40,558 bases of DNA from an uncultured bacterium (GTDB lineage Bacteria; Verrucomicrobiota; Kiritimatiellia; RFP12; UBA1067). The position numbers and the translations under genes are program-made. Within the stretch, counting starts at the first letter, position 1; each line of letters begins with the position of its first letter. The notes beneath the pieces are model-generated. The model saw nothing but the letters and a program-made list of their open reading frames with translations, ran no database searches and was not told the origin of the DNA. Shown piece by piece: positions 9,137 to 36,592 of the stretch. The stretch lies in NCBI GenBank assembly GCA_902763655.1, contig CACWSW010000044.1:1-40558 (forward strand), written 5' to 3'.

Positions 9137-12100
9137 TCAGCGGAAGATGACCTGGAAGCCAACGCCCTTGACCTGGATGGCGCCCGCGCCGGAGATGTGC
9201 CCGGGCAGGTTCGCCGCCGTATAGTGGCCGGAGAGCCGCCTTTCGCCGATCCAGCCCTCGGCGAACTTCTGCGTCATACCGGCGGGAATTTCGATCTTGC
9301 CGCTGTCCGCGAAGCGGATGACCGCGTGCTGCGGGTTGAACGTGTTCGCGGAGGTCAGCTTCAGCGTGCCGCACCCGGTCACATTCACGTTCGTGCCGTT
9401 GAGCCAGCTCGCGCCGTCGGTGAACGTGAGCGTGCCGTCGGAGACGGTGATGTCGCCGTACGACGCGAACGCGCGGCTCCTCAGCCGCTGCCAGCCGGAA
9501 CCGGACATCTCGATGGAGACGCGTCCCGAGAGGACGGACGTCAGGTTGGTGCTTGCGGTCGCGGCCTCGTTCAGGACGCCCTGCATGATCTCGAGGCAGC
9601 CGTCGCCCTCGATGGTCCCGGCGTTGTTCGACGAGTAGATGACCAGCCAGCGCTGGTGCGTGCCGTTCAGGCGCATCACGCCGTTCGCGGCGTTCATGTG
9701 CACGAGCGTGTCGTCGAAGGCGTCGTCCACGTGGAACTCGGCGACAAGCCCGGAATTGAGTCTGTACACCATCGCGGCCCTGTTCCCCGTGGTCTTGAAC
9801 ACGTGCTTTCCGTTGCTGCCGTTGACCTCGCGGTCCTTCCGAACCTGCACCATCGGCCCCTCGAACACGTAGGTGGCGTTGTGCGCCCCAAAGCCCGCGC
9901 CGCTGGTCATCGCATCCCTGTAGCCTTTCTCGAACACGACGGTCGCCGACACGCCCTCTCCGCTCAACGCCGTGGACGGCGTTTGCGTCACGACTTCCTT
10001 GAACACGTTCGTGGTGTTCGCTGCGGCGATGAAAAAGGTCGTAACGCCCGTCGCGCCGGCCATCTGCCCGCGTCCCTCCAGCGACACCGGCTTCCAGCAC
10101 GTCACGCCCTCGAAGCGCGTCACGCCCGTCTCGCACCAGCCGTCGTTGATGTTGCTGTTGTTGCGGTAGTCCCCGTAGCGGATCGTCAGCGGCTCGACGT
10201 CGCCCGGATTGCCGATCTGCCCCTTGAGGACGAGCGTGCCGCCTCCGGTGGTGTGCGTGATCGGACCCGACACGCGCGGATTCACCAGCTTGAGGACGCC
10301 GTTCGTCGAATAGTCCCACGCGAGGCCGCTCAGCTTCGTCCCCTTCAGCTCGATGCCGCACGTCGGGTCGCCGTCGATCCCGCCCGAGAACACGACCTCC
10401 GCGCCGTCCGCCGGCATCGTGATCGTCTGGCTGTCGCGGAGGAGGACGGGCGCGGCGACCTCGTAGCGCGGCATCGCGCCCAGTCCGGGATCGTCCACGC
10501 TCACGTTGCCGTACAGCTGGAGCGTGTCGTTGCCCGAAAGCGTGAACGCGGACACGCCGCCGAAGCCGAGCCCCAGGACGTTGCAGGTCGCCCCCGTGTC
10601 CAGGACGGCCGAAGCCGTCGCGGCCGTCGGCGAGGCGAAGATCGGCCGGCAGGTGGCCGTGGAGAAGTCCGGCGCGACGTCCCAGTTGCCCGCGGCCGAC
10701 GCGCTGGTCGAGGTCGCCCCGGTCCACGTCACGTCCGTCGGCGCGACGGACGGGCTCAACAGCACCTTCACGGAACCATACGGCAGCCAGGCGTTGTCGG
10801 CCGCCGCATAGACGCCGGGCGCGAGATACGCGCCGCCGACAGAGAGAGTCTTCACCGTGAGCGTGCGCCCGTCCGAACCCAGGTCAAGCACGGCCTCCGA
10901 TCCGAGAACCGGCTCGAAGCCACCCTGGTCGATGGCCGCGTCCGTCCCGGCGAACGTGAGGCAGCCGCGCACGTCGACCTTCCCGTAGATCGGCACCCCC
11001 GACGCCACGACGATGTTCGTGAACGCGCTCGGCGCCCCCGAGAAGAACACGCGGCCTCCGTTGACGGACAGCGACTCGGCGGACGACCCGCGCACCGAGA
11101 GCGTCCCGGCGCCTTCCTTCTCAACGGCCACGTTCGCGGTGCAGCGCGCGTTGAGCGTGGCGTTCACGTCCTGCGCGCCCAGCACGAGCGTGCCCGTGGC
11201 GGACGCGGTGTTCGTGACGATGCCGATGTTGGAACCCGTCCCCGTACTGGTGACGCTGTTCAGGTGCTGGCGCCGGCCGTACAGGTCCAGGCAGCAGTGG
11301 TGCTGGTTCTGGTTCGCGTTCCCCTCCGCGTAGCCCGCGTACCCGTTGTACTCCACCACCATGCCGCCGACGCCCGGCCCGTACGGCAGGACGTCGTCCG
11401 ACTCCGTGCGCAGCCACATGTTGCCCGTCAGGTGGATGTCGCCCGTGATCTCCCAGACGATGTTGTCCGAACGCATCAGCCTCCACGGACGGAAGTTCCA
11501 GCCGTTGCCCCACTGCGGAATGGCCCCCTCGTTGTGCAGCCGCACGTCGGTGCCGCGCATCCGCACCGTTCCGCCCAGCTGGCCGCTCATCTTGGCTTCG
11601 GCAAACTGCTTGCGCAGGCTGATCGGGTTGCCGTTGACGCCCTGGCAGATGATCTCGTGCCCCGTTTCGGGACTCAACGACGTGCCGTGGTCGCAGACGT
11701 TGTTGCGGAAGAGCACGCCGCCGTTGAAGAGGATGCGCGCCGGATAGGGGCTTTTGTTGTAGATGCAGGCGATGTCGGCATACGCGCCGGACTTGATCTC
11801 CAGAAAGTCGATCATGCCGGGCGCGTTCGTGGCGACGGAGCTTTCCACGAACAGCCACTCCGCCCAGAACGTGCCGAACACGTTGGCTCCGAAACCGGTG
11901 TCCTTCGTATAGTCCTCCACCACGAGCTTGGCGCGTCCGGTGGAGCCAGGCTCGCCCCCGGCGGTTCCGAGACGCACGCGCACGCGGGACGGTGCGGCCG
12001 CCCGGTCGCCGGGCGGGTCGATGCCGAGCGCCGTCCATTTCGCCGGCCCGTCCGAGTTCCTGTACGTGGTCGCGAACAGCGAATACCCCTTCACCGTGAC

Positions 12101-12379
12101 CGTCACGTCGTTCGCGTTCGTCGCGATGTAGAACTGCGGGTTGGTGTCGACGGAGGGCGTTCCGACGCCCGTCTGGTTCGCGCCCATGAAGCGCACGTAC
12201 GACCGCCCCTGCAGCGTGAAGTCGGCGAGGATCGACCCCACGTTCACGGGCGCGGTGTAGACGTTCGTCACGCCCGACCAGACGGTCGGCGACGTGATGA
12301 CCATCGACTCGTTCGTAACGACGCCGTATCCGGCCGCCGCCAAGGCCGCGCACACCATGCCAATCACGCGTTTCTTCAT
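9137..12379 (-). CDS. Large secreted beta-helix-like surface protein with Ile-Phe-Arg end
   Basis: This is a 1080-residue exported protein. The start at 12379 has AAAGGAG about eight bases upstream and gives a standard signal peptide (MKKRVIGMVCAALAAAGYG). The body is repetitive beta sequence rich in Gly, Thr, Asn and Val. It has passenger-type motifs such as KEGAGTLSVRGSSAESLSVN near residue 420 and repeated G-T-L-x-L strands towards the C-terminus. The protein ends SGAGAIQVKGVGFQVIFR at the stop, sharing the terminal Ile-Phe-Arg with its neighbours. No enzyme motif or membrane barrel is seen. It converges with the 1181-residue surface gene, the hairpin array filling the gap. Its own promoter lies just upstream, so it need not be co-transcribed with GH26. 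Surface adhesion or glycan binding is inferred. Confidence 0.85.
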   Translation of the reverse strand: MKKRVIGMVCAALAAAGYGVVTNESMVITSPTVWSGVTNVYTAPVNVGSILADFTLQGRSYVRFMGANQTGVGTPSVDTNPQFYIATNANDVTVTVKGYSLFATTYRNSDGPAKWTALGIDPPGDRAAAPSRVRVRLGTAGGEPGSTGRAKLVVEDYTKDTGFGANVFGTFWAEWLFVESSVATNAPGMIDFLEIKSGAYADIACIYNKSPYPARILFNGGVLFRNNVCDHGTSLSPETGHEIICQGVNGNPISLRKQFAEAKMSGQLGGTVRMRGTDVRLHNEGAIPQWGNGWNFRPWRLMRSDNIVWEITGDIHLTGNMWLRTESDDVLPYGPGVGGMVVEYNGYAGYAEGNANQNQHHCCLDLYGRRQHLNSVTSTGTGSNIGIVTNTASATGTLVLGAQDVNATLNARCTANVAVEKEGAGTLSVRGSSAESLSVNGGRVFFSGAPSAFTNIVVASGVPIYGKVDVRGCLTFAGTDAAIDQGGFEPVLGSEAVLDLGSDGRTLTVKTLSVGGAYLAPGVYAAADNAWLPYGSVKVLLSPSVAPTDVTWTGATSTSASAAGNWDVAPDFSTATCRPIFASPTAATASAVLDTGATCNVLGLGFGGVSAFTLSGNDTLQLYGNVSVDDPGLGAMPRYEVAAPVLLRDSQTITMPADGAEVVFSGGIDGDPTCGIELKGTKLSGLAWDYSTNGVLKLVNPRVSGPITHTTGGGTLVLKGQIGNPGDVEPLTIRYGDYRNNSNINDGWCETGVTRFEGVTCWKPVSLEGRGQMAGATGVTTFFIAAANTTNVFKEVVTQTPSTALSGEGVSATVVFEKGYRDAMTSGAGFGAHNATYVFEGPMVQVRKDREVNGSNGKHVFKTTGNRAAMVYRLNSGLVAEFHVDDAFDDTLVHMNAANGVMRLNGTHQRWLVIYSSNNAGTIEGDGCLEIMQGVLNEAATASTNLTSVLSGRVSIEMSGSGWQRLRSRAFASYGDITVSDGTLTFTDGASWLNGTNVNVTGCGTLKLTSANTFNPQHAVIRFADSGKIEIPAGMTQKFAEGWIGERRLSGHYTAANLPGHISGAGAIQVKGVGFQVIFR

Positions 12380-12425
12380 GCTGGATTCTCCTTTTCGATC
12401 ACATACATTGTCTTGTACGGCGCGT

Positions 12426-12434
12426 ATTATACCA
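12426..12434 (-). promoter_or_regulatory. Extended -10 promoter of the 1080-residue surface protein
   Basis: On the minus strand TGG-TATAAT (12434-12426) forms an extended -10 element. I see no convincing -35 box. Transcription would start near 12419, about 40 bases before the ATG. Confidence 0.45.
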
Positions 12435-12478
12435 AAACAAATCAACGCGTAGGACGGGAAATGCGTTTTTCTGGGCCG

Positions 12479-15100: not shown

Positions 15101-15913
15101 ATGTCAAATCGCTTCGCGCTCGCGCGCACCGTCTGGTGGGCACGCAGGTGGATCGCCTCGCTGGAGGCGATGCGCCTGGGGCCGCGATTCGGGCGAGGGC
15201 GGCAATATGCCGTTGCGGGACAGGTGACCGAACTGGTGCTGGAAGGTCCGCACGTCGAAGCGACCGTCGTCGGCTCGCGCGAAGCCCCATACCGCCTCAC
15301 GCTAGACTTCACCACGCCAGACTCGGCGGCACGCGAACGGATCGCCGCCGCCATCGCCGCCGAACCGATGATGCTCGGCCGTCTCCTGACCGACGACCTG
15401 CCCACCGAGATCGAGTCCCTCTTCCGCACCGAAGGCATTCCCCTCTTCCCCCAAGCCGAACCGCTGGTATGGTCGCCGACCAAATCCGTCTACGACGTCA
15501 AGATGCACTGCTCCTGCCCGGACTGGGCACGTCCATGCAAGCACCTCGTCGCCGTCATGCTGCTGCTTGGAGAAGAGATCGCGCAGCGCCCCACCACCCT
15601 TCTCTCGCTGCGCGGCATAGAGGTGGAAGATCTGGTATTGAAGATTGAGGATTTGAGATTGAAGATTAAATCTTCCACCCCTCAATCTCCAATCCTCAAT
15701 CCTCAATCCTCAATCTTCAATCTTCAATCCTCAATCTTCAATCTTCAATCCTCAATCTCCAATCACCAATCCTCAATCCTCAAGCGTCTCGGTCCGATTC
15801 CTTTCTGGCGGGGAACGGTGCGGTGCGTGGACTCGCTTGCCCGCATCTACGGCCGTTGCCAGCCTGTCGCGGCGGATGCCTCGGCCGGCAAGTCCATCGA
15901 CTTGCGCGGCTAA
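15101..15913 (+). CDS. SWIM zinc-finger domain protein with repeat-derived linker
   Basis: This is a 270-residue cytoplasmic protein. The N-terminus (RTVWWARRWIASLE, then a GRGRQYAVAG stretch) is typical of bacterial SWIM proteins, which supports the ATG at 15101 although a hairpin replaces the ribosome site. The SWIM zinc ligands are C137, C139, C146 and H148 in HCSCPDWARPCKHL. SWIM domains are thought to bind DNA or protein and often sit beside an SNF2-type helicase; none is in this window. Residues 180-228 (KIEDLRLKIK..., then repeated QSSIFNL) are encoded by a heptamer DNA repeat inserted between the zinc finger and the conserved closing motif LGPIPFWRG. The frame is kept, so the protein may still work. 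The last 25 residues look unrelated to the family. Confidence 0.8.
   Translation: MSNRFALARTVWWARRWIASLEAMRLGPRFGRGRQYAVAGQVTELVLEGPHVEATVVGSREAPYRLTLDFTTPDSAARERIAAAIAAEPMMLGRLLTDDLPTEIESLFRTEGIPLFPQAEPLVWSPTKSVYDVKMHCSCPDWARPCKHLVAVMLLLGEEIAQRPTTLLSLRGIEVEDLVLKIEDLRLKIKSSTPQSPILNPQSSIFNLQSSIFNLQSSISNHQSSILKRLGPIPFWRGTVRCVDSLARIYGRCQPVAADASAGKSIDLRG
15637..15783. repeat. Heptamer repeat (CTCAATC variants) with inverted left arm, inside the SWIM gene
   Basis: About 15 head-to-tail seven-base units (CTCAATC, TTCAATC, TCCAATC) fill 15681-15783. Roughly four units in the opposite orientation (ATTGAAG, ATTGAGG, ATTTGAG) fill 15637-15667, giving a fold-back with a short centre. Three heptamers make 21 bases, so the protein repeats every seven residues. 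Gain or loss of one unit would shift the frame. Confidence 0.9.
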
Positions 15914-23085: not shown

Positions 23086-24455
23086 TCAAGACAGGCCTTC
23101 GATCCCCCATCCCTTGCGGTACGAGGACTTGAGAAACGCGTTGGCGGCAATGCAGTCGAACACGCGGCTCTTCGGATCCCAGGCGAGCTTCGTGCCGGCG
23201 ACCCGCTCGGCGATCTCGCCGGCGAGGATCGTCTCCATCATCCAGGTCGTCCAGTCGAAGTCGGTGGAGGCCTTGCGTCCCTCCAGGCAGGCGTCCACGA
23301 ACTCGTGGTAGTGGGACGGCACGGCGGGAAGCTGCGGCGCCTTCATGGGCTTGCCGTCGTTGCGGACGAGCCGTCGCGGCACTTGATGGCCTTGCCCTCG
23401 TGCGGACGCTTCTTCGCGGGCGTCTGCTCGAAGAGACGCTCGACCTCGGCGGGCGGACGGAACTGCGCGGGCGCCAGGTTGTCCGGCTCGCTGCAACCGT
23501 CGAACCACTCCCATTCGAACGGCTTGCCGCCCGAGGCCGGCACGCCGGCGAACTTCCAGGTGATGTGCGTGGCCGTGGGCCAGACGATGTCCTTCACGTT
23601 GTCCTCGGCGTTCGTCTGCGTCTCGGCGACCACGGTGAGCGGCGCGGCCTTCCCGAGCGACATGCCTTTCCAGATAGCGGACATCAGGTGGCAGCCGATG
23701 TCGCCGATCCAGCCGGAGCCGAGGTCGCGCCACACGCGCCAGATGAGCGGATGGTAGACGTCAGGCGCATACGGACGGACCGCCGCCGTGCCGAGCCAGA
23801 GGTCCCAGTCCAGGTGCTCCGGCGCGGGCACTGACGCCGGCAGGTAGCGGCGGCGGCGGGAGAGGCCCTTGCGCGTGGAGAAGAAATAGACGCGCTCCAC
23901 CGGACCGAGTGCGCCCGTGCGCAACAGCTCGACCGTCTGCCGGTCCGCCATGAACGCCGTGTACTGCGCGCCCATCTGCGTGACGACGCCGTTCCGCACG
24001 GCGAGGTCGCGCAGGAGCGCCGCCTCGGCATGGCTCTTGCAGAGCGGCTTCTGGAGGTAGATGTGCTTCCCCTTCCGCATCGCGGCGGCGGCGACGATCG
24101 TGTGGTTGTGGTCCGGGATGGAGATGTTCATCGAGTCGATGGCGTCGCCTTCCTTCGCGAGCAGCTCGCGCCAGTCGCGGTAGAAGTGCGCCTTGGGGAA
24201 CTCCTTCTTCATGCGGTCGAGGAACTTCGCGTCCACGTCGCAGAACGCCGCCATCTCGATCTTCGGATGCGAGCGGAGGCTCTTGATGTCGCCGCCGGCC
24301 ATGTTGGCGGTGCCGATGCTGGCGTGGCGCAGCAGGCCGTTGGGACTACGCACGGCGGTGATCGCGGGGAATCCGCCGTCCCACGTGCTGCAGCCGGACG
24401 CGGCGAACGCCATTCCGAGCCCGATGAAATCTTTTCGGTTGATTTTCATTTTCAT
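23086..24455 (-). pseudogene. Gfo/Idh/MocA-family oxidoreductase lipoprotein, frameshifted
   Basis: The start at 24455 follows AAGGAG. The N-terminus MKMKINRKDFIGLGMAFAAS then GC carries both a Tat-like pattern and a lipobox cysteine, so the protein would be exported and lipid-anchored. The Rossmann part has ASIGTANMAGGDIKSL, AFCDVD and PDHNHTIVAAAAMRKGKHIY. The family's Glu-Lys-Pro is Gln-Lys-Pro (LQKPLC). The frame closes at 23343, while the missing C-terminal 90 or so residues (QLPAVPSHYHEFVDACLEGR to KGWGIEGLS) continue one frame over to 23086. The break lies at about 23365-23400. No slippery sequence is seen, so a real one-base lesion or a sequencing error is likeliest. Relatives oxidise sugars or act as glycosidases with NAD. 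Confidence 0.75.
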
Positions 24456-24496
24456 TTTCTTTCTCCTTGGAGGTGGATGCAAAACACCGACATTCT

Positions 24497-24542
24497 GGTA
24501 GGGCTGACGTTCCATCGCCAGCCGCGGACGGCGATGGCCCTA
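24497..24542. repeat. Copy B of the palindromic element, containing a stop codon
   Basis: GGTAGGGC, TTCCAT, GCCGCG and GGCCCTA occur in the same order as at 9013-9060. TAGGGC (24499-24504) pairs with GCCCTA (24537-24542), enclosing a GGCTGACG/CGCCAGCC stem with one mismatch. The last three bases of the palindrome, CTA, are the complement of the TAG stop of the triple-malectin gene. Confidence 0.8.
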
Positions 24543-27500
24543 TCGAAAGATGATCACAACACCCTTGACGGACGTATCCGTGAACGTCAGCTCGTCGAAA
24601 CCGTAATGGACGAGCGACGCGCCGGCGGTGTGGTGAGAGATGCTGCAGGGGCCCACGTAGACGTTCTCCACGTGCGCGACGGTCTGCGTGACCGCGTTCA
24701 CGCACGTCCCGTCCTCCAACGAGTAGGTCAGGACGTATCGGTCGTTCGCGCCCATGCGCTCGCGCGTCATCTTCAGCCTGAACGGCGGATTCGCAAGGTC
24801 GCCGACCGTCGAGGAATCCAAGGCGTAGCCGATCGAGAGAGTGCCGTCGTTTGGCGACAGGTCGCCGTAGCCGCGCATGGTGCCCTTATGCGTGCCGTCC
24901 ACTCCGCCGTAGAAAAAGAATCCGTTCGGATCGGCGGACGCGAGCGACGAACGCACGGCGATTCCGAACCGCGTGTTTTGGGAAAGGACCGGACCGCCGC
25001 ACTCCGTCACGCGGAACGAGCACTCGAACGGTCCCTTCCCCGCCGCACGGTAGAGGAACGTGGCGCAGTCCGTCCCGCCCCACATGTCCCGTCCCGACGC
25101 GGCCATCAGCCAGTTCGTGCCGGCGGCGGACGTCGCGCGCAGGAACGCGGGCGAGTCAGCGGCGCCGATCTGGATGAAGTGCCAATCCGACGGATACGAT
25201 AAGGTCTCCGGCGCCGCCATGAGGCACGACGAAAGGGCCGGAAGCGTCACGCCAGCGGCCGACCACGCCAGCTCGGAGGCGGCACCGCCCGACGGCAGAT
25301 GCTCCGCATAGATGTCGTGCGGGCCGCCCGCAAGTGCCACGGCGGCACCGCATTGCACGCGCTGGCCGTCGATCCACAGGTTGTACGTTCCCGTGGCGGT
25401 CTTCGTGAAAACGTAGTCGTCGGCCGCAGGCGCATACAGGCGCGCGTGCGCGAGGATACGCGGATGGTCCCCGGCGCCAGCCACGTCTGCCTCCGTCCAG
25501 GAGAAGGTCGTCAGGTCGCGCTCGGACACGAACGCCTCGGCGAGGTTGCCGGGCGCGGCGTCGTCCGCGTCACGCATCACGGCCAACCGCCCGGCGCCGA
25601 ACGGCGCCGACTTGACCGGCACGAACTCGATGCCGCGCAAAACCGGATTCTCCTTCCCGCGCATGACCGTCATGCGGATGACGCCGTCGGGGCCTGGCCG
25701 AACCTCTCCCTCAATGACGCCCGGTATCTTAGTTCCGCCGCAGACGTTGAACGGGTCGATGGCCGCAAGTGCATCCTCGCGCGCATTGTTGAAGGCCACG
25801 TCGAACATCCGGTTCGACACCGCCGTGAAGTACGACTCGAAGAGATGGAACCTCATGCGATACGTCTGTTGCGGGTCAAGTCCGGGAAACGCGAAGCGGT
25901 AGGATTCCGTCGATCCCCACTGGTCGCTGAAGAGCTGCGTCTGGTAGATGGCGTCCGGAGCCTGTTCAGGTACGGCATTCTGCGGCACGGCGGGAAACGG
26001 CTTGGCGGAATCCCTGAAAGAGCTTTCTTCGTGCCCCACGCGGAACGGCGCGTCGCTCACCCACCCGTCCGGCGTCTCGCTCGCCCAGTTCGCGGTAAAG
26101 TTGACACGCAGCGCATCCGCGAGGCCCCGTCCGGCGCGCATTCCGGCCTTCCAGGGCGACCAGGAACCCGTTTCGCCCCTGAAGGTTCCGCGCGCCCGGT
26201 ACCACCGCGTCGCACCGGCGGACACCGTCCTGTCCAGCATGCCGAACGCGGACACCGCCGTCGCAAGCGTCGTGACGGCCCCATCTTCCGAATCCTTGCA
26301 CTGGATCTCGTAGGAGAACTGGGCATGGCGCGTCTCCGGCACCACGTGGATGCCGTCGGCGAATTCCACGAGCCTCGTCTCCGGCACATCCCCGGACATC
26401 GGCTCGTCGGCGCGCGCAAGCACCTCGACGCCGCACAGTACCGCGTCTTGGGCGTCTTTGCCCAAGGCGATCTCGAGCCGCCCGTCTCCATCCGCGCACG
26501 CGGTGAGGTTCGTGTAGACCGCCGTGAACGGCACGTACCCGCCCGCCTTCGTGATGGGCCATGCGCCGGCCAGGACGCCGTTCGTCAGGATGTTGACCTG
26601 CCGCGCAGTTCTTTCGTTCGTGGCAGCGCTCCACGGCTCGACGGCGTGGAGGCAGACTTCATACTCGGCGTTTGCCGTGAGGTTCGAGAACACGAGCGCG
26701 ATCCGGTTCTTGCCGGCGTAGCCAATCTGGTAGCCGTACGTGCGGTAGAGCGCTTCAAGGCCCATGTACGGACCGTCCAGGCCGTTGACGGACTGCCCGG
26801 ACGAGATTGTCATGCTCCGATAGGGCGAAACGAGCGCGGCATTGGCCGGCACGAACCATCCGCACGCGGCCGACGTCTCTCCGATGTTCAGCGCGTACCG
26901 CACGCGCGGAGCATCTTTCAGATACGTCCGCACCGCGCTCGTCACCGTGCCGAGACCGTTCGAGGAGACGACCCGGTATTCCGTCCGCGCGTTTGCCGCA
27001 GGCGAAACGGCCAATGACCGCACCGACGAATCCAGCGTGGCAAGGGGCGTCCAGGCGCCGTCTCCCGTCCGGCTCTCGACGTAGTACGCCAACGTGTCCC
27101 GCGCTGCCCCCCAGCTCAACGTGCCGGCGCCTTCGCCCGACATCTTCAGCTCAAGGGCCGCAGCCGTCGGCAGGTTCGTGCCGGACAGCGTCGCCACGTT
27201 CAGCACCGGCTGGTCCTTGGCGAGCGGGAAAGAGAAAGAAATGGTGCCGTTCGCCTGAGCCGTCACGTTCGTGAACGCGAGCTTGCCGATGGTCTTGATG
27301 GCGTTTCCGCCAATCACGCCCGGATCGACCACCAAGTCGTCGCCGTTCGCATCCTTGACCGTCTCGCCGTTGATCTGCACCTTCTGTGCCCGCGTGTTCA
27401 GCTGCCAGGGTTCGTTGAGGTAGAACTCCAGCAGATAGTCGGCTCCTGGGGTCAGACCCGAAAACGAAAGTTCGTACGCGACAGTCTTTCCTCCATCGCA

Positions 27501-27857
27501 GAGGTAGGCCGTACGCTTGAACGCATCGGACGGGAGCGTGGCGAGCTCATCGGCATCCAAACGGCTTGTTGACGGCGTCGCGTCGCTGCCGGAACCGCGA
27601 TTCGCGTTCGCGTTCACCTGCCAGAGCGCGAGGAAAGGGAACTGCGGCGTCCGGGTCGTCAACGTGTAGTACATGCCGGCCACGCGCCCGCGCACGGGGT
27701 CTGCGTCCGCGTAGGAGCTTGTCGCGACCATGCAGGCCACCGCGCCGATGATTCCAGCCCCCCAGCGCGCGCCCCACCGCATCCTGGATGCGGTGGCACA
27801 CGAGCGTGCACGCCACCGAAACACGTCGAGTTTTCCCAGTTTTTGCAACGGACTCAT
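24540..27857 (-). CDS. Secreted triple-malectin surface protein with Ile-Phe-Arg end
   Basis: This is a 1105-residue protein. The ATG at 27857 has AAGGAAG upstream and gives an unusually long signal peptide: a basic stretch of about 30 residues, then GIIGAVACMVATSSYADA. Malectin-like carbohydrate-binding modules lie near residues 50-215, 317-480 and 580-750. The recurring core is LSFSGLTPGADYLLEFYLNE, LVFSNLTANAEYEVCLHAVE and FAFPGLDPQQTYRMRFHLFE. A fibronectin-III-like segment lies near 225-310, a PA14-like one near 752-880 and a concanavalin-like one near 880-1090. The end is TSVKGVVIIFR, matching the tail signature. Malectin modules bind di- and oligosaccharides, so surface glycan capture is likely. 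The Gfo/Idh/MocA lipoprotein gene follows 84 bases downstream. Confidence 0.85.
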   Translation of the reverse strand: MSPLQKLGKLDVFRWRARSCATASRMRWGARWGAGIIGAVACMVATSSYADADPVRGRVAGMYYTLTTRTPQFPFLALWQVNANANRGSGSDATPSTSRLDADELATLPSDAFKRTAYLCDGGKTVAYELSFSGLTPGADYLLEFYLNEPWQLNTRAQKVQINGETVKDANGDDLVVDPGVIGGNAIKTIGKLAFTNVTAQANGTISFSFPLAKDQPVLNVATLSGTNLPTAAALELKMSGEGAGTLSWGAARDTLAYYVESRTGDGAWTPLATLDSSVRSLAVSPAANARTEYRVVSSNGLGTVTSAVRTYLKDAPRVRYALNIGETSAACGWFVPANAALVSPYRSMTISSGQSVNGLDGPYMGLEALYRTYGYQIGYAGKNRIALVFSNLTANAEYEVCLHAVEPWSAATNERTARQVNILTNGVLAGAWPITKAGGYVPFTAVYTNLTACADGDGRLEIALGKDAQDAVLCGVEVLARADEPMSGDVPETRLVEFADGIHVVPETRHAQFSYEIQCKDSEDGAVTTLATAVSAFGMLDRTVSAGATRWYRARGTFRGETGSWSPWKAGMRAGRGLADALRVNFTANWASETPDGWVSDAPFRVGHEESSFRDSAKPFPAVPQNAVPEQAPDAIYQTQLFSDQWGSTESYRFAFPGLDPQQTYRMRFHLFESYFTAVSNRMFDVAFNNAREDALAAIDPFNVCGGTKIPGVIEGEVRPGPDGVIRMTVMRGKENPVLRGIEFVPVKSAPFGAGRLAVMRDADDAAPGNLAEAFVSERDLTTFSWTEADVAGAGDHPRILAHARLYAPAADDYVFTKTATGTYNLWIDGQRVQCGAAVALAGGPHDIYAEHLPSGGAASELAWSAAGVTLPALSSCLMAAPETLSYPSDWHFIQIGAADSPAFLRATSAAGTNWLMAASGRDMWGGTDCATFLYRAAGKGPFECSFRVTECGGPVLSQNTRFGIAVRSSLASADPNGFFFYGGVDGTHKGTMRGYGDLSPNDGTLSIGYALDSSTVGDLANPPFRLKMTRERMGANDRYVLTYSLEDGTCVNAVTQTVAHVENVYVGPCSISHHTAGASLVHYGFDELTFTDTSVKGVVIIFR

Positions 27858-27895
27858 GATTTTCTTCCTTATGCCAGCTTTTACAAAGCATTGCA

Positions 27896-27924
27896 AGTAT
27901 ACAGAATCCTACCTCAAAGCACAA
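27896..27924 (-). promoter_or_regulatory. Promoter of the triple-malectin surface protein
   Basis: On the minus strand TTGTGC (27924-27919), exactly 17 bases, then TATACT (27901-27896). The predicted leader is about 32 bases and includes the AAGGAAG site. Confidence 0.55.
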
Positions 27925-27972
27925 CATTGTCCTTCGCATAGACTTGAATTCAACGATTCAATGCCCTTGCGT

Positions 27973-29394
27973 CTATTCTGCTGCAAAAAGATCGTCTAGC
28001 GTAACCTCCGACTGGACACGAGACGAGTATTCGTTTCGGACAAGCCCGCTGGACGTGATCATCGTCAGGTGGATCGATTTCCGCGTTTTTGTCACATCGC
28101 GAAACACGCCAATCTTTTGCGCCAGTTTCGCGTCATACTCCTTGTCGATCCTGAACGGCTCCGCCGTGTACTTGCATTCGCAGATGTTGATGACATTGTC
28201 GGCCCTGTCGAAAAGCAAATCTATCTGTGCGCCGTCTGGACACATGTCGTCTGCCCGATGATGCCACGCGCAACACTCTACGAGAACGCCAACAATCCCA
28301 AGCGCCCTGCGTATCTGCGGCTGATGCAGGAGACAAAGCCGTTCAAAGGCCAACCCGCACCAGACTCTGTGGGAAGGCGAATCCACCGTCCGCAACCAGA
28401 AGTTGCCGTCTGACGACCTCCTGCCCGCAAGGTATCGGAAATGGAAGAGCGAAAACGCGTCGACAAGCTGAAACACCTGTTTGCTGATCCCTGAGCCGAA
28501 AGGATTGTACTTTCGGACAAAGCCGCTCACGGTCAACGCTTCAAGCGCGTCCGTCAATTTGCCGGATGCGGAAATGCCGAGCGCATGCGCGATGTCTTTC
28601 CGCGTCATGCCGGCGACCCTCCCGGCAAGTTCCTTCACGATCTTCCGGGGCATAGCCGAGTTGCGGAATAACGACGAGTAGAGCTCCACGAACTCGTCGG
28701 CGAGCGGAGCTCCGTCCTCGAAGAACATCCTGTCGAGATTCTGCGCGACCGAGAAGCGCTTGTCAAGGTATCGCCAGTAGTACGGGATTCCACCGAACGC
28801 CATGTAGCACTCGGCTATTTCCGACCGCGACATCACAAGGCCCCTTTCGCGGACAAAGCCTTCGCACTCGTTCAGCATAAACGGGTTCAGGCAGATTCGA
28901 CACGTGACGCGGTTATGAAGTCCCCCGCGATTTCGAAACAATTTCTTTGATATCCAGGAGGCGGCCGAACCGCAGACGATCAGCAGAATGTCCTTGCGCG
29001 CCGATGCCCACCCATTCCAGAATCCTTCTAGCGCCGACACGAAATTCGACCGCGGCGTGTCTAGCCACGGCATCTCGTCGATGAACACGACTTTCCTGCT
29101 GAAATCGCTCGCCTCAATAACCTCTCGAAGCATGACGAACGCCTCATCCCAATTCTTCGGCGTCCCATGTCCGGACAACCCAAACGACTTGAGAGAAACG
29201 GCGAAATTGGCAAGCTGGCGCTTCATTCCACCTTTCGCAAGACCAGAATGCTGAAACGTGAATTGCCCGTCAAACGTCTCTCGCACGAGATATGTCTTGC
29301 CTACGCGGCGACGTCCATAGATTGCGACGAACTCCGATTCATCGGATTCATACATCCGCATAAGCTCGCTTTGCTCAACCTTTCGTCCTATCAT
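27973..29394 (-). CDS. AAA ATPase with winged helix and DUF234-type nuclease domain
   Basis: This is a 473-residue cytoplasmic protein of the archaeal-type ATPase (ATPase_2/DUF234) group. Walker A is GRRRVGKTY (residues 27-35). Walker B is KVVFIDEMPWLD (D106/E107). A winged-helix stretch, MTRKDIAHALGISASGKLTD, lies in the middle. A PD-(D/E)XK-like nuclease core, AQIDLLFDRADNVINICECK, lies near the end. Members are common in archaea and anaerobic bacteria and spread by transfer; their role is unsettled, with toxin-like or DNA-mobility functions proposed. The AGGAG site best fits the ATG at 29394, though a GTG lies directly before it. The gene and its flanks are visibly richer in A and T than their surroundings, and an operator-like repeat set overlaps its promoter. 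Confidence 0.85.
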   Translation of the reverse strand: MIGRKVEQSELMRMYESDESEFVAIYGRRRVGKTYLVRETFDGQFTFQHSGLAKGGMKRQLANFAVSLKSFGLSGHGTPKNWDEAFVMLREVIEASDFSRKVVFIDEMPWLDTPRSNFVSALEGFWNGWASARKDILLIVCGSAASWISKKLFRNRGGLHNRVTCRICLNPFMLNECEGFVRERGLVMSRSEIAECYMAFGGIPYYWRYLDKRFSVAQNLDRMFFEDGAPLADEFVELYSSLFRNSAMPRKIVKELAGRVAGMTRKDIAHALGISASGKLTDALEALTVSGFVRKYNPFGSGISKQVFQLVDAFSLFHFRYLAGRRSSDGNFWLRTVDSPSHRVWCGLAFERLCLLHQPQIRRALGIVGVLVECCAWHHRADDMCPDGAQIDLLFDRADNVINICECKYTAEPFRIDKEYDAKLAQKIGVFRDVTKTRKSIHLTMITSSGLVRNEYSSRVQSEVTLDDLFAAE

Positions 29395-29419
29395 CACATA
29401 CTCCTTCCATGCCTTCGGG

Positions 29420-29516
29420 GTGCTAATATCCTACCAAATATCTTGATTTAGCACAAGTACAAGCGATTTCCAATTCAATTGGTGCTAAAATACATTACAG
29501 GATGCACTTTTAGCAC
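29420..29516. promoter_or_regulatory. Four GTGCTAA half-sites in two inverted pairs (operator-like)
   Basis: GTGCTAA at 29420-29426 faces TTAGCAC at 29448-29454. GTGCTAAAA at 29482-29490 faces TTTTAGCAC at 29508-29516. Centres are about 28, 34 and 27 bases apart. The first pair brackets the predicted ATPase promoter, one half-site overlapping the -35 box and the other the start point, as expected for a repressor site. No known regulator was recognised for this motif. Confidence 0.65.
29428..29456 (-). promoter_or_regulatory. Predicted promoter of the AAA ATPase gene
   Basis: On the minus strand TTGTGC (29456-29451), 17 bases, then TAGGAT (29433-29428). Transcription would start near 29421, inside the first GTGCTAA half-site and about 27 bases before the ATG. 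Confidence 0.5.
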
Positions 29517-29611
29517 TATTTCACGAACCGATCTAAAGGTTTCGCTCACCATAGCCACCCATTCTTCGCGCCATGCCGTTCTTTGCGGCTAAAAAACTGC
29601 GACGCTTAGGT

Positions 29612-32600
29612 TTAGCGGAAAATCACGGTGGTGCCGGTCGCCTTGACGAGATACCAGCTGTCGCCGTCACGCCAGAGCTTCCAGCTGGGCTGGGTCACGT
29701 TGTGGCCCGCGAAGTCGCCGGCGGCGTCGCCGGTCACGGACACCACCGTATGGCGGGTGGTCGGAGCGGCGCGGTCGTAGCCGTCCACCACCAGCGTCAC
29801 GCCCGCGCCGATGCGCAGGTCGCCGTCCACCGTGACGGTCTCCACCTCGCCATTCGCATCCACATGCACCACCAGCGTGCCGCTTTCGCCCAGGTCGAGG
29901 CCGCCCGCGAGCGTGACGCGCCCTTCGATCTCGAGCGAGCCGGTGCCGGTAAACGGCGAAGACGCCCCCGGTTCCGCGGCATGCCCCGCAATCGCCCACT
30001 TGTTCATCAGGTACGCCTCCACCTGCTGGATCTCCGCGTCCGAGAGCGCGTTCGTGTAGGCCAGCACCTCCGCTGCGCGGAAATTGGTGTTGCCGTTGCC
30101 GGTTTGGGCGCCCAGGGCGTCGGGGGTCCCGAAGATATGTTGCGTGCTGCCGCCATAATGCACCTCGTCCTCCGGGTGCGCGGCGTCGTCCAGCCGCACC
30201 ATGAAGCAGAACGGCGTCTTGCCGGGTTGCACATTTCCAGACATGTTCCGCTTCTCGCCGTTGAGCCGCACCGTGTCCTGCCCAAAGTAGTAGGAGACGC
30301 GCCCCAACGGCTGGAAAGTGGCTGTGGCGCCCGAGCCGCACCGGATGCTGCGGTCGATTCCCGCCTTGCCCCAGTAGCCGCCCGCGCCTTTGCTGGAGTT
30401 GCCGTCGTTCGCGGCCACCAGGAAGAGCGTACGCACGGACGTTCCGCCGCGGCTGAGCAACTGCTCCGTGGGGCCGTCCCTGAAATGCACCGTGCGCAGA
30501 CCGTTGATGCCGTCGGCCGCAGACGTGTAGGCCTTCGGCCCCGTCCCTCCGCTGAGCGCGCCGCTCATCCCCGACGCCCAGCTGAAAGCGGGAATCACGC
30601 CGGCCTTGCTGAGCCAGTTGGTCACCATGCCGTTCGCGTCGCACGCCACGGAGGACTCGTCGCTCGCGTCCAGCCAGTATGCGAGACCCGCCGTCGGCGG
30701 CGTGTTCGTATAGGCGACGATCCGCGCCGAGCCGCCGGCGAGGACGAGCCGGGCGCCGTCGGCCACCGCCACGTCGAAGTCATTCGCCCCGTCTCCGGCC
30801 GCAACGAGCCTCGTCCGTCCCGACAGCTCGCCCGCGAAGTCGCACGCCCCGGTCACCCGGAGCGTGGCGGGGTTCGTGGAGCTGTTCATCACCGTGCCGC
30901 AGCCGGAAAGCGACGCCACCGTCTGGTCCGCGCCCGCGAGGTCGAGGACGCCGCCGTATTCCAGCGTCAGGTCGGTCAGCGGCGAAAGCGTCTCCTCGTG
31001 CGCGACGCTCGCATGCGCCGCCACGCCCCGCCACTTCTCCGTGAGGTAGTTCTCCACCGCCTGCCGCTCGCCGTCGGTGAGCAGACGGTCGAACGCGATC
31101 GCCTCGGCGATGTCGCCCACCCAGCGACGCCCGTCGTTGTTGTTGTAGCCGCCCACTTCCGCCCGGAACGCCGCCGGCACCGTCGCGTACGCGGAGCTCT
31201 CGCCCTTGTAGTATTCGATGTCCTTCTGCAGCGTGAGGACGCTCATGCCTTGCGTCGTGGCCATAAAATTCGACGTTTTCTTCACGCCGTCCTGGTAGAC
31301 GTACCCCAGGGTGTTGAACTTCGAGGTGGAGATGTTGCGTTCCATGTATCCCGAAGCGTTGGCGCGGATGCCGGTGTCGCTACCATATCTCCCGAAGAGG
31401 CAGAAGAATTCGACGCCAGAGACGGCTCCCGCCCAGCGGTAGACCACGAATACCGTGCGCTGCGTGACGTTGGTGGGGGTCGCCAGGCCGCAGTGGGCGT
31501 CTGCGCCGAAGTTCACCACCCCCATGCCGTTCTCGAGCGTGGACCGCGTGGGTCGCGCACTGTTGTTCACGGGAACGAAGGACACGCCGTTCACCAGCGA
31601 CTGCCAGTTCGTCACCCCGCCGTTCGCGTCGCACAGCACGGTCTCGGGACGCGAGGCGTCGAGCCACCACGAGAGCGACGGCGACTCGAAGATGCTGCCC
31701 CGCAACCGCAGCGTGCCGCCCCGCACGACCGTCCGGCCGGTGTAGGCGTTGGTGGAGACGATCGCCGCCGTGCCGCCACCCTCCTTGACGAACGAGAGCC
31801 GTCCCGCGCCGTCGGCGAGCACCGGCCGCACCAGGAAGTCCTTCCCCGACGAGCCGACGGCGAGTTCGGCGTCCGCGCTCGCGCCCGCGATGACGCCCTT
31901 CCCGCCGCCGTTCACGCCCGAAAGGCTGCCCACGCGCACCGCGCCGGCGATGCCCACGGACGAACACTCCCGGGGACTGCTGTTGACGTCGACTGCGAGC
32001 GTGCCCGGGAAGTCCTGCGGTCCCTGGAGCGTCAGGCTGCTCTGGTCGATTCTGAGCGTGCCGTTCGCCGTGCCCGCCAGCGGCGTGGACACGACGTCGC
32101 CTGTCCGGTCGTGGAGATGCACCACGCCGGCGCTGACGGTCAGCGTGTTCGTGGGCAGCGCGCTGGAGGGCTCCACGGCAAGCGTGGCCCGGCTGCTCGT
32201 GACCGCGACCTTGCCGGAATAGCCTGCGGTGGATCCGGCGAGGACGTACGTCACCGCCTGTCCGCGGTCGCCGAACGAGATGTCGCCGGCGCCAACCAGC
32301 GGCCCCGCAAACGTCAGCGGGCCTTTGGCGCCCACTGTCAGCGCGTCGTCGACCGTCACCGTGCCGGACAAGGTGATCGCACCTGTGGTATCTCCCGCGA
32401 GGCCGGAATGTCCGTCCGTCGCATTGACGCCGGCCAGATGGAAATTCTGGCTGTACGTGCCGCCCACTTCGATGAAGAGCCCCGCCGCGTTCCCCCGGGC
32501 ACCGCCGCAAATGTACACGTCGCCGCCGAGGGGGAGGCTGTTCGTGGCGAGCAGCCAAGCCCGCGCGTTGTGGAAGTAGGTGGGGCCCGTCCAGCCGCAA

Positions 32601-33892
32601 CAACCGTCGTAGAAGCGGTAAAGCGTGGTCTTGTCGCCGTCCATCGGCCGCGACGCGAAGGTGACGCCCGCGCTGCCGGCAATCTTGCCGCGCACGTCGA
32701 GTCCGCGCCCGGCGGCTACAACAGGCGTGCCCTTCCAGATCACGCCGTGGGACGTCCCGAAGTCAAGCGTGCCGGCGAAGTTGAACTGCGAATAGGTGCT
32801 GTTGGCATCGGTCTGCTCGCGGAAGATCACGCCCGCCGGGTGCACGCCGTCGCCCACCGTGAGGGTCGCGCCGCTGGCGATCTTGAGGTTCGCGCGCTCG
32901 TTCACCACCAGCGCCGCCACCTGCCGGTCGGCGTCCACCGGCACGTCCGCGCCCATCGACGCGGGGTTGGCAACGGCGATATCCGAGCTGCCGGCCGAGG
33001 CGAGGTCCACGAGCGCCGATTCGGGATAGGGCGCGATGCCGTCCGCCGCCGTGTAGGAGAGGAAGGAGAACGGTCCGCCGGTGGTGGCGAGGTCGCGCGT
33101 GACGATGCGCGGATCCAGTATCCCGTTCACGAGTACGGGCGGCGAGGTAAAGAACAGCTTCTCGGTCGCGCCGATTCCCGACATGCCCGCCCCGCCGGTC
33201 ACCACCAGGGCGCCGCCGGGCTCGAACGCAAGTCCGGCCGCCGTCATGGTGACGCCGTTGTTGAGCTGCAGCACGCCGGCGCCGCGTCCGCCCACGAGCG
33301 TGCCCGGCAGGGACACGGCGGTCCCGGACGCCGAGGGGTTGTAGCGCGCAATGCCGCCCGCGATCTCAAACGCGCCCACGGTGCCATCGCCGAAGACTCG
33401 TCCGGACACGGCCTCGATCTGCTCCAGCGTGCCGTCCGCCACGCGCACGCGTCCGAATCCGGAGAAGTTCTTAAGCAGCCTGAGGCGTCCCGCCCCCTTC
33501 GTGGTGAGCGTGTCGCCCGCCGAGCCCTTCAGCGCCACGCCGAGCCGGATTCCGGTTCCCGTATGGGACGTGCGCACGAACGCGTCACCGGACATCGTGA
33601 CGTCCGACCCTCCGAACGCAGAGGTCTCAGCCGCTTGATATCCGTTCATGAAGTCGATGCCGCCGAGTGTCAAGCCCGACGGGAACTTGATGTTGCAGAA
33701 GCTGTTCGCCGAAAAAGAGGCAACACCCCCCTCGCCGGCCACCTGCGAGTCGATCCAGTACTGCCTGTCCTGATAGCGCATCTCCGCCGTCGGGGCCGGC
33801 GCGCCCAGCCACATCGTGCCGTCGACGGCACCGCATGTCCACGCCGCGCCCACGACAAACACCGTCACAAAAAACATACGCGTTCTTGCCAT
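29612..33892 (-). CDS. Very large secreted LamG and beta-strand-repeat surface protein with Ile-Phe-Arg end
   Basis: This is a 1426-residue protein. The ATG at 33892 has GAGGAG eight bases upstream and starts a signal peptide (MARTRMFFVTVFVVGAAWTC, cleaved near CGA-VDG). The N-terminal half is passenger-like beta sequence. One clear autotransporter-associated repeat lies near residues 700-730: GGGTAAIVSTNAYTGRTVV, then RGGTLRLRG. Two LamG-like modules follow, near residues 735-975 and 1067-1300. They share the opening WLDAS, D-A-N-G-x-V-T-N-W and the closing (S/T)DxE-(I/R)-Q-x-V-E-x-YL-x-x-KW. The C-terminal domain ends DSWYLVKATGTTVIFR. No barrel domain is present. A large surface adhesin or glycan-binding protein is inferred. 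It is divergent from the DUF1080 hydrolase gene. Confidence 0.87.
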   Translation of the reverse strand: MARTRMFFVTVFVVGAAWTCGAVDGTMWLGAPAPTAEMRYQDRQYWIDSQVAGEGGVASFSANSFCNIKFPSGLTLGGIDFMNGYQAAETSAFGGSDVTMSGDAFVRTSHTGTGIRLGVALKGSAGDTLTTKGAGRLRLLKNFSGFGRVRVADGTLEQIEAVSGRVFGDGTVGAFEIAGGIARYNPSASGTAVSLPGTLVGGRGAGVLQLNNGVTMTAAGLAFEPGGALVVTGGAGMSGIGATEKLFFTSPPVLVNGILDPRIVTRDLATTGGPFSFLSYTAADGIAPYPESALVDLASAGSSDIAVANPASMGADVPVDADRQVAALVVNERANLKIASGATLTVGDGVHPAGVIFREQTDANSTYSQFNFAGTLDFGTSHGVIWKGTPVVAAGRGLDVRGKIAGSAGVTFASRPMDGDKTTLYRFYDGCCGWTGPTYFHNARAWLLATNSLPLGGDVYICGGARGNAAGLFIEVGGTYSQNFHLAGVNATDGHSGLAGDTTGAITLSGTVTVDDALTVGAKGPLTFAGPLVGAGDISFGDRGQAVTYVLAGSTAGYSGKVAVTSSRATLAVEPSSALPTNTLTVSAGVVHLHDRTGDVVSTPLAGTANGTLRIDQSSLTLQGPQDFPGTLAVDVNSSPRECSSVGIAGAVRVGSLSGVNGGGKGVIAGASADAELAVGSSGKDFLVRPVLADGAGRLSFVKEGGGTAAIVSTNAYTGRTVVRGGTLRLRGSIFESPSLSWWLDASRPETVLCDANGGVTNWQSLVNGVSFVPVNNSARPTRSTLENGMGVVNFGADAHCGLATPTNVTQRTVFVVYRWAGAVSGVEFFCLFGRYGSDTGIRANASGYMERNISTSKFNTLGYVYQDGVKKTSNFMATTQGMSVLTLQKDIEYYKGESSAYATVPAAFRAEVGGYNNNDGRRWVGDIAEAIAFDRLLTDGERQAVENYLTEKWRGVAAHASVAHEETLSPLTDLTLEYGGVLDLAGADQTVASLSGCGTVMNSSTNPATLRVTGACDFAGELSGRTRLVAAGDGANDFDVAVADGARLVLAGGSARIVAYTNTPPTAGLAYWLDASDESSVACDANGMVTNWLSKAGVIPAFSWASGMSGALSGGTGPKAYTSAADGINGLRTVHFRDGPTEQLLSRGGTSVRTLFLVAANDGNSSKGAGGYWGKAGIDRSIRCGSGATATFQPLGRVSYYFGQDTVRLNGEKRNMSGNVQPGKTPFCFMVRLDDAAHPEDEVHYGGSTQHIFGTPDALGAQTGNGNTNFRAAEVLAYTNALSDAEIQQVEAYLMNKWAIAGHAAEPGASSPFTGTGSLEIEGRVTLAGGLDLGESGTLVVHVDANGEVETVTVDGDLRIGAGVTLVVDGYDRAAPTTRHTVVSVTGDAAGDFAGHNVTQPSWKLWRDGDSWYLVKATGTTVIFR

Positions 33893-33925
33893 TGCAGGTT
33901 CTCCTCTGGATGTTGAAGCGTGTCC

Positions 33926-33954
33926 ATTATGCCAAAAAACAGATTTGCCCACAA
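33926..33954 (-). promoter_or_regulatory. Promoter of the 1426-residue surface protein
   Basis: On the minus strand TTGTGG (33954-33949), 17 bases, then CATAAT (33931-33926) with an extended TGG. The predicted leader is about 27 bases. Confidence 0.5.
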
Positions 33955-34078
33955 GGGTGGAGATTGAATTTTCTGTTTTGCCACTTCCGCGCGCATGCGG
34001 CAAGTTGCCGGACGAGGCGCAGCCTATGCGCCGTTTAGGCGGCTCGCGCTTGACCGTAATCCACGCCATCAAGGAATA

Positions 34079-34087
34079 TGCTATACT
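34079..34087 (+). promoter_or_regulatory. Extended -10 giving a leaderless DUF1080 transcript
   Basis: TGC-TATACT is a near-perfect extended -10. Its usual start point, six to seven bases downstream, falls on or beside the A of the ATG at 34095. No Shine-Dalgarno sequence lies before that ATG, so a leaderless message is likely. Confidence 0.45.
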
Positions 34088-34094
34088 TTCCCGC

Positions 34095-35279
34095 ATGAAG
34101 AACAAGATGCTGTTAGCGGGGCTCTGCGGCGTGGCGCTGTGCGCCGGCGCGGCGGAGCGTGGTATATTCGGCCTGTACGGAGACACGCCCGACGCCAAGC
34201 ACGCCTGGGCGGTGCACGACCTCAACCGTCCCTACCCCAAGCAGGTGGAGACCCCTGAGGGCAAGCCGCCGTCCGACGCGATCGTCCTCTTCGACGGCAC
34301 GCAGAAGAGCGTGGACGAGAACTGGTGCGACCCGAACGGCAAGCCAACGAAGTGGCGCGTGAAGGACGGCACGTTCGTCTGCACGCCGCGCTCCGGCATG
34401 GCCTGCACGCGCCGGTCGTTCGGCGACGCGCAGTTCCACGTGGAATGGCTCAGCCCGCTCGAGGACGCGAAGCGGCACGGCCAGCTGGGAGGCAACTCCG
34501 GCGTGTTCCCGATGGGCAAGTACGAGATCCAGATCCTCAACTCCTACGATCCCGACCCCAACGCCAAGGTCGAGCGCAACTACCCCGACGGCATAGCCGG
34601 CTCCGCCTACGCCGAGAATCCGCCGCTCGTCAACGCCTCCCGCCCGGCCGGCGTGTGGCAGAGCTACGACATCGTCTTCCACCAGCCCATCTGGAAGGAC
34701 GGCAAGATCCTGCACCCCGGCACCGTCACCGTGTTCCTCAACGGCGTGCTCGTGCAGGACGCCTGGGAACTTGAGGGCATGAGCACGCACCGCGTGCGCA
34801 AGCCCCTGGTCCAGCACGAGACGAAACTCCCATGGAAGCTACAGGACCACGGCGACCCCGTTCCATTCCGGAACATCTGGATCCGCGAGATCCCATCGCG
34901 CTGGGACAACACCACGCACTCGCTCATGTCCGCCAAGGAAGAGGAAGTTGCGGCGTTGCGCGAGAAGACGGCCGCCGCGCTCTTCGCGAACGTCGATCCC
35001 TCGAAGCCGGATCCGAAGAACGTCAACGGCGCGCTCGAGGTCCTCTCCTACTCCAAGAAGCCTGAGTACGTGTCCGCCGCGAAGAAGCTCTGCGCCGGCT
35101 ACGAGGCTCGCCTGAAGTCGCTCTCTGGCAAGGACCTCGACGCCGAGCGCACCTTCGTGGTCGGCACGCTCAAGGGCTTCAACGTCCTCGTGCGCAACAA
35201 CGTCGTCGCTCCCGGCGACTTCACGCTCTACGCCACGCTCAAGAACATCGCCGACAGCCGGAAGTGGCCGGTGCGCTGA
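34095..35279 (+). CDS. Secreted DUF1080 (3-keto-disaccharide hydrolase) protein
   Basis: This 394-residue protein has a signal peptide (MKNKMLLAGLCGVALCAGAA). The DUF1080 concanavalin-like fold, about residues 60-290, has DAIVLFDGTQKSVDENW, KDGTFVCTP, HGQLGGNSGVFPMGKYEIQI and FRNIWIREIPSRW. DUF1080 proteins of Bacteroidetes and PVC bacteria cleave 3-keto-glycosides or bind glycans outside the cytoplasm. A C-terminal helical extension of about 100 residues (SAKEEEVAALREKTAAALFA onward) is an unusual addition. There is no ribosome site, but an extended -10 lies eight bases upstream of the ATG. RNase D follows after four bases in the same operon. Confidence 0.85.
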   Translation: MKNKMLLAGLCGVALCAGAAERGIFGLYGDTPDAKHAWAVHDLNRPYPKQVETPEGKPPSDAIVLFDGTQKSVDENWCDPNGKPTKWRVKDGTFVCTPRSGMACTRRSFGDAQFHVEWLSPLEDAKRHGQLGGNSGVFPMGKYEIQILNSYDPDPNAKVERNYPDGIAGSAYAENPPLVNASRPAGVWQSYDIVFHQPIWKDGKILHPGTVTVFLNGVLVQDAWELEGMSTHRVRKPLVQHETKLPWKLQDHGDPVPFRNIWIREIPSRWDNTTHSLMSAKEEEVAALREKTAAALFANVDPSKPDPKNVNGALEVLSYSKKPEYVSAAKKLCAGYEARLKSLSGKDLDAERTFVVGTLKGFNVLVRNNVVAPGDFTLYATLKNIADSRKWPVR

Positions 35280-36384: not shown

Positions 36385-36445
36385 CCAGCCGCACGCGCTC
36401 CGCACGGGAATGTAAATGAGGATAAATTTGATGGTGCTCCACATT

Positions 36446-36542
36446 GCTTTCGCTACTGGGAGATTCGGAGGTTAGGAGTTTCGGAGAGAACTATAAAATT
36501 TCTCCAAGCCTCCTAAACTCCAAAACTCCCAGCAGCGAAAGC
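36446..36542. repeat. 97-base near-perfect inverted repeat between convergent genes
   Basis: GCTTTCGCTACTGGGAG (36446-36462) pairs with CTCCCAGCAGCGAAAGC (36526-36542), 16 of 17. Pairing continues inward through three eight-base units (TTCGGAGG, TTAGGAGT, TTCGGAGA) against their mirrored set, leaving a short A/T-rich centre. It lies between the ends of rnd and pbpC. It could be a two-way terminator or a miniature mobile element; target duplication was not seen. Confidence 0.85.
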
Positions 36543-36592
36543 AAGTAAGGGAAGTCACAAGGAAGTTACAGGCAAGCCGAAAAACCCACACA

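Follow-up and report, generated by a model that had tools for sequence, protein, structure and literature searches.

The locus at the end of the malectin gene

The window analyzed here is a stretch of 40,558 nucleotides from an uncultured bacterium of the Kiritimatiellia. A minus-strand gene for a malectin-domain surface protein ends inside a short palindromic element of this window. The element begins with GGTAGGGCTGACGTTCCATCGCCAGCCGCGGACGGCGATGGCCCTA at position 24497, and its whole sequence, GGTAGGGCTGACGTTCCATCGCCAGCCGCGGACGGCGATGGCCCTATC, spans 24497-24544 and includes the CTA that gives the TAG stop. The features of the locus are as follows.

23343-24455, minus strand: gene for a GFO_IDH_MocA-type oxidoreductase, downstream neighbor of the malectin gene
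24497-24544, no strand assigned: degraded HH (head-to-head) GTAG-REP doublet of class A with GTAG-type tags pointing outwards, as judged against the intact doublet L003 (contig C54)
24497-24523, plus strand: left class-A half-unit, GGTAG-GGCTGACG-TTCCAT-CGCCAGCC, with one stem mismatch
24526-24544, minus strand: right class-A half-unit with 8 nt deleted and the tag degenerated to GATAGGG
24540-24542, minus strand: TAG stop codon of the malectin-domain gene, inside the right tag
24540-27896, minus strand: malectin-domain surface protein gene, product ending in GVVIIFR

The malectin gene has one Pfam malectin match above the cut-off. The CTA at 24540-24542 is indeed its minus-strand TAG stop, directly behind the GVVIIFR tail, as the initial annotation had it. 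The element itself had been called a full copy, which is incorrect. The intact relative L003, GGTAGGGCTGGCGTTCCATCGCCAGCCGCGGACGGCGGTGGAACGCCGTCCCTACC, consists of two inverted half-units with GGTAG tags outwards; compared to it, the window copy has one mismatch in the left stem, lacks 8 nt (AACGCCGT) of the right half and carries GATAG as the right tag. The folding energy is -43.8 kcal/mol (z -7.5) for the intact doublet versus -20.7 kcal/mol (z -1.7) for the window copy. Given the loss of 8 nt and of much folding energy, the window copy has probably become a relic and serves no selected role. Rfam gave zero matches across the window, and a search for intrinsic terminators (a hairpin followed by a T-run) found nothing resembling a terminator on either strand of 24497-24544. 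The element is a genuine repetitive extragenic palindrome (REP) doublet of the GTAG type, in a decayed state.

A REP array at a second site of the window

At least five REP units lie in an array at 8953-9089, between two convergent genes.

5298-8843, plus strand: gene with the end GTTFILR, convergent on the array
8953-8977, plus strand: class-B REP unit
8986-9010, minus strand: class-B REP unit
9013-9039, plus strand: class-A unit, left half of a hybrid A/B doublet
9036-9060, minus strand: class-B (GGAG-tagged) unit, right half of the hybrid doublet
9065-9089, minus strand: class-B REP unit
9137-12445, minus strand: tail gene with the end GFQVIFR, convergent on the array from the opposite side
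29612-33877, minus strand: third tail gene of the window, with the end GTTVIFR and no REP downstream, an internal counter-example

The copy at 24497 had been regarded as the same element as 9013-9060. This holds for the left half-unit, which shares its architecture with 9013-9039, whereas 9013-9060 as a whole is a hybrid A/B doublet. Likewise, of the two copies said to lie right at the 3' end of a tail gene, the one at 24497 does so, while 9013-9060 ends 77 bp from the stop of the 9137 gene with other units in between. Two further structures were seen in the window: a heptamer tandem tract, (TCAATCY)n, opposite its own reverse complement at 15620-15781, which could form a long AT-rich hairpin, and an inverted repeat of 44 nt (84% complementary, 13-nt spacer) at 36444-36544, between two convergent genes.

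The class-A REP family and its sister classes

Class-A units consist of a GGTAG tag, an 8-bp stem starting with GG, the loop sequence TTCCAY, the second stem arm ending with CC, and a trailing GC; they measure 27-29 nt with a 6-nt loop, within the 20-40 nt of GTAG-tagged REP stem-loops. The 4.5-Mb draft genome contains 40 exact and 47 one-mismatch half-units for GGTAGGGNNNNNNTTCCANCG, and the exact pattern, when reversed as a control, has no match in the genome, so the element is not a product of chance. With about 40 copies, class A is modest in size among REP families. Across 29 distinct units, 97.4% of the stem cells are paired and the stem covariation score is 0.317, versus 0.092 in shuffles and at most 0.106 for slid partners. 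The third stem pair occurs as CG, AU, GC, and UA, and changes on both sides are found at three pairs. The GGTAG tag is conserved among the aligned units, a conservation for which the search pattern itself selected.

Most class-A loci (25/32) are extragenic and seven are intragenic. The class occurs both as singletons, of which there are many, and as doublets. HH dimers with outward tags are found at L068/L003, L065, L072, and the window copy, and hybrid A/B doublets also exist. A structural scan identified the same architecture in class B (GGAG tag, GGGAGGGNCGC...GCGNCC) and class C (GGTAG tag, CGCG-rich stem), with 91 class-B and class-C units in 1.14 Mb of other genome stretches. Of the 59 genomes searched, 12 contained class A, most of them belonging to the same genus. 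A fourth palindrome, GGGAGCCGCCATCTTGGCGGC, was dropped together with its apparent link to tail genes, as it gave 115 matches versus 103 in shuffled sequence with two mismatches allowed. We regard class A as a new family of a known kind, the GTAG REPs, although it may equal one of the 24 published family consensuses.

A candidate transposase for class A

A profile match to NF047646 (REP-associated tyrosine transposase, RAYT) was found at 3287-3604 of contig C45. The predicted protein contains the HUH motif (PDHLHF) and the catalytic tyrosine motif (CYICNNPVRKGL, in an NPVRxGL context). Its activity is uncertain, because the match scores 72.2 bits, under the NCBIfam cut-off of 80, and the domain and reading frame are interrupted by REP-coded inserts. 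Nine class-A units at C45:2969-3902 surround and interrupt the gene, an anatomy that is that of a REPtron (PMC3733652). The sister species G003 has a homologous RAYT gene on C108, with ten class-A units around it. Since the arrangement is repeated in a second species, the likely mobilizing enzyme of class A has been identified. A second RAYT gene, on C163, is surrounded by class-B units.

Five RAYT genes, L223 (G000:C45), L232 (G003:C108), L213 (G000:C163), L212 (G003:C52), and L215 (G007:C65), carry their own REP class in frame, between the conserved motifs. The resulting peptides are GRDGVPSPTA and GADGDGTPSLPG for class A, GGSQFIATE and TDARQRVPP for class B, and GRAVAPRPP for class C. In the class-A and class-C RAYTs, which resemble each other, two shared insert positions are occupied by different REP classes; the number of inserts differs between G000 and G003. 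We found no paper describing RAYT genes with their own REP class in frame. Repeated in-frame peptides also occur in the RAYT-like genes L211 (G005:C614), L217 (G014:C39), and L222 (G003:C98); these peptides (GEGERPREP, ARVDARPP, NGRDARCPS, and TGETPVVP) look like translations of further repeat families.

A Y1_Tnp transposase on C278 was rejected as a partner of class A, having its own inverted repeat, AAAACAGGTC.GACCTGTTTT, behind the gene, and its nearest REPs being of class B and hundreds of bases away. The combination of a Y1 transposase gene and this adjacent palindrome is seen at L088 (C278, approximately 3537-3577) and also at L199, L202, and L208. At L208 the palindrome flanks the gene on both sides, as in a TIR-flanked RAYT relative, a type that has been described (PMC3733652). 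The C278 transposase has relatives in rumen and gut MAGs, of which several are named Kiritimatiellae, Lentisphaerae, or Verrucomicrobia, and a PDB sequence search with this protein gave no match.

The malectin stop and its REP-free relatives

According to the initial annotation, the element supplies the stop codon of the malectin gene. The TAG does lie inside the right REP tag, but the wording is misleading in view of two sister genes. The malectin gene of G006 (96.7% DNA identity) ends with ATCATCTTCCGG-TGA (CGGTGA) and that of G012 (95.0% DNA identity) with ATCTTGCGC-TAG (CGCTAG); both end at the same residue, are free of REPs and have a downstream gene other than the oxidoreductase gene found in the window. 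The protein end in the window thus predates the REP, and, judging from these genes, the element probably did not create the malectin stop. The ancestral stop could have been of either kind, as the sister stops are TGA and TAG.

A similar comparison is possible at a locus on contig C166. There, CGG-TAG or AGG-TAG leads directly into a class-A REP in G000, G003, and G004, and the REP-free relatives have AGA-TAG (G005), CGG-TAG (G008), and CGC-TAG (G010). With a REP-free TAG in three relatives, the stop at C166 is most likely older than the REP as well. In G006 the REP at this locus is without its tag, and the frame reads on beyond the old stop. An overlap with the stop codon is ordinary for GTAG REPs, whose termini often provide TAG stops (PMC3733652).

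Excess of REPs at the 3' ends of tail genes

The [VI]IFR-stop pattern has 36 matches in the genome versus none for the reversed pattern; nearly all of them close long open frames. The majority have G-[TM]-x-[IV]IFR in common. This C-terminal motif was noted on 36 genes, mostly large (9137, 24540, and 29612 in the window; L032-L061 and L089-L094), and resembles a sorting or anchoring signal of an undescribed kind. The tail pattern has 8 to 47 matches in seven genomes of the genus and is near background in others.

Class-A loci were compared with intergenic positions drawn at random from the same contigs, using distances and a breadth of the tail motif that were picked during the analysis. Six of the 32 loci lie within 200 bp of a strict tail 3' end (1.19 expected) and three within 50 bp (0.45 expected). 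For broad tail ends the count within 200 bp is nine (1.87 expected), and for non-tail ends there is no excess (10 versus 9.42 expected). With the window left out, four of 30 loci remain within 200 bp of a strict tail end (0.85 expected, P = 0.01). The bias toward tail-gene 3' ends that the initial annotation had suspected is therefore borne out. When all three classes are taken together, a REP is found within 250 bp of 8/33 called tail genes versus 17/773 other genes, the calls being those of a home-made gene caller and the background stretches coming from contigs without class-A units, which favors long contigs. The sister genome G006, which is not independent of G000 by descent, has REPs near 4/22 tail genes versus 5/159 others (P = 0.014); in G003 they are near 2/22 tail genes, a count without its own background. 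The excess is about five-fold, includes class B and is real in the present data.

That element and tail travel together, as had also been proposed, is not supported by these data. Three quarters of the tail genes lack a REP within 250 bp, and class-A REPs are absent from G001 despite its 22 tail matches, which argues against a shared traveling unit; moreover, sister species carry the same malectin tail gene free of the REP, and the distance from REP to stop varies from 0 to about 180 bp. Several REPs near non-tail ends sit at most 5 bp from the stop, in agreement with the closeness of REPs to gene ends reported in other REP-rich genomes.

Proposed history and alternative explanations

The element at 24497 is very probably a decayed GTAG-class REP doublet of a family that was mobilized in trans by the RAYT-type HUH/Y1 transposase on C45. 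The family would have been disseminated by the RAYT, inserted near gene ends and then decayed. We infer that the C45 enzyme also moved the 24497 copy, which would have landed beside an existing stop codon and subsequently lost 8 nt. Should the region be transcribed, the hairpin would hold the stop codon in its base and might slow termination or shield the mRNA 3' end, as REPs do in E. coli; from E. coli precedent (PMC12306157), the translation or mRNA stability of the malectin gene may be affected. The REP-free orthologous sites are consistent with mobilization by the RAYT. Since the downstream gene of the window is also variable among species, the element may owe its place to a rearrangement instead of a simple insertion. 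In a comparison of window 23343-34225 with G006:C135 (L282), the order of tail genes and oxidoreductase is rearranged, with one breakpoint at the window REP.

Candidate causes of the tail bias are survival in long spacers, which is weakened by stratification, a landing preference for Arg-TAG, seen at two loci, and REP-mediated cassette exchange, for which there is one junction, the window's own. The first, a by-product of insertion survival in long non-coding spacers beside large accessory genes, is conceivable, though we lean against it. REPs are restricted to longer spacers, and the spacers of tail genes are longer (median 92 versus 29 bp). However, the odds ratio remains 9.2 after stratification by spacer length and is 7.8 when the comparison genes are those of 400 aa or more, a group defined by size, and permuting positions within the spacers of the same contigs gives an excess for tail ends only.

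It is rather unlikely that the REPs are recombination joints that shuffle tail-gene cassettes and mark their boundaries. The downstream neighbor of the window tail gene differs from that in G006 and G012 with the junction at the REP, and several REP classes occur at tail 3' ends; on the other hand, the comparison covered one junction, no REP was found at the G006 counterpart (L282) and the insertion at C166 looks simple. A related and equally tentative idea is that REP insertion is aimed at, or retained at, G-x-x-[IV]IFR gene ends: units may land against Arg plus TAG, as CGGTAG and AGGTAG contain GTAG, and might then serve as exchange joints for tail cassettes.

Less likely still is a functional 3'-end signal, i.e., a terminator or a hairpin for RNA stability or translation control that is selected at tail genes. 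Intact copies with strong hairpins, the REP excess at tail 3' ends and the finding that E. coli REPs at most 15 nt from the stop can lower translation (PMC12306157) would fit such a role, but a REP of any class lies within 250 bp of only 8/33 strict tail genes, the sister malectin genes manage without one, the window copy is degraded, the element has no T-tract and the distances to the stop are variable. Finally, a chance palindrome or the gene's own sequence can be dismissed, since, even though the GC content of the window (65%) makes weak palindromes common, it is refuted by the 40 exact copies versus none in the control, the covariation and the RAYT linkage.

Comparison with known systems

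The preferred reading, a decayed doublet of a RAYT-mobilized family, brings in a REP/RAYT system of uncultured gut Kiritimatiellae, together with a candidate transposase; we found no paper that joins Kiritimatiellae and REPs. The REP-free orthologous sites indicate that a REP can come to lie against a TAG stop that was already there, without having created it. A further result is the measurable surplus of REPs next to surface-protein genes of one class.

The closest known system is the GTAG REP superfamily (Di Nocera et al., 2013, PMC3733652), which includes families of Opitutus terrae, where such REPs are abundant, and for which HH dimers and RAYT linkage have been described. Class A shares with this superfamily the GTAG tag, a perfect stem, covarying sub-families, HH and hybrid dimers, an intergenic 3'-end location with some intragenic copies, TAG stops formed by the tag, and the linkage to a RAYT. 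It differs in the loop TTCCAY, the trailing GC and the host, a gut Kiritimatiellae bacterium, while the parallel GGAG class in the same genome and the excess at one class of protein-tail genes also set the present system apart.

The inverted doublets of short GTAG palindromes and the dedicated HUH/Y1 transposase are also found in the REPIN/RAYT system of Pseudomonas (Bertels and Rainey, 2011, PMC3116915) and in TnpAREP of E. coli and Stenotrophomonas (PMC8266576). The mobile unit of a REPIN is the doublet and not the single REP. In contrast to these systems, class A has many singletons, the RAYT genes here carry their own REPs in frame, and the data are from sequence. With the rickettsial palindromic elements (RPE; in PMC3733652), class A has in common that palindromes occur inside coding frames (7/32 loci), whereas it differs from them in being mostly extragenic and linked to a RAYT.
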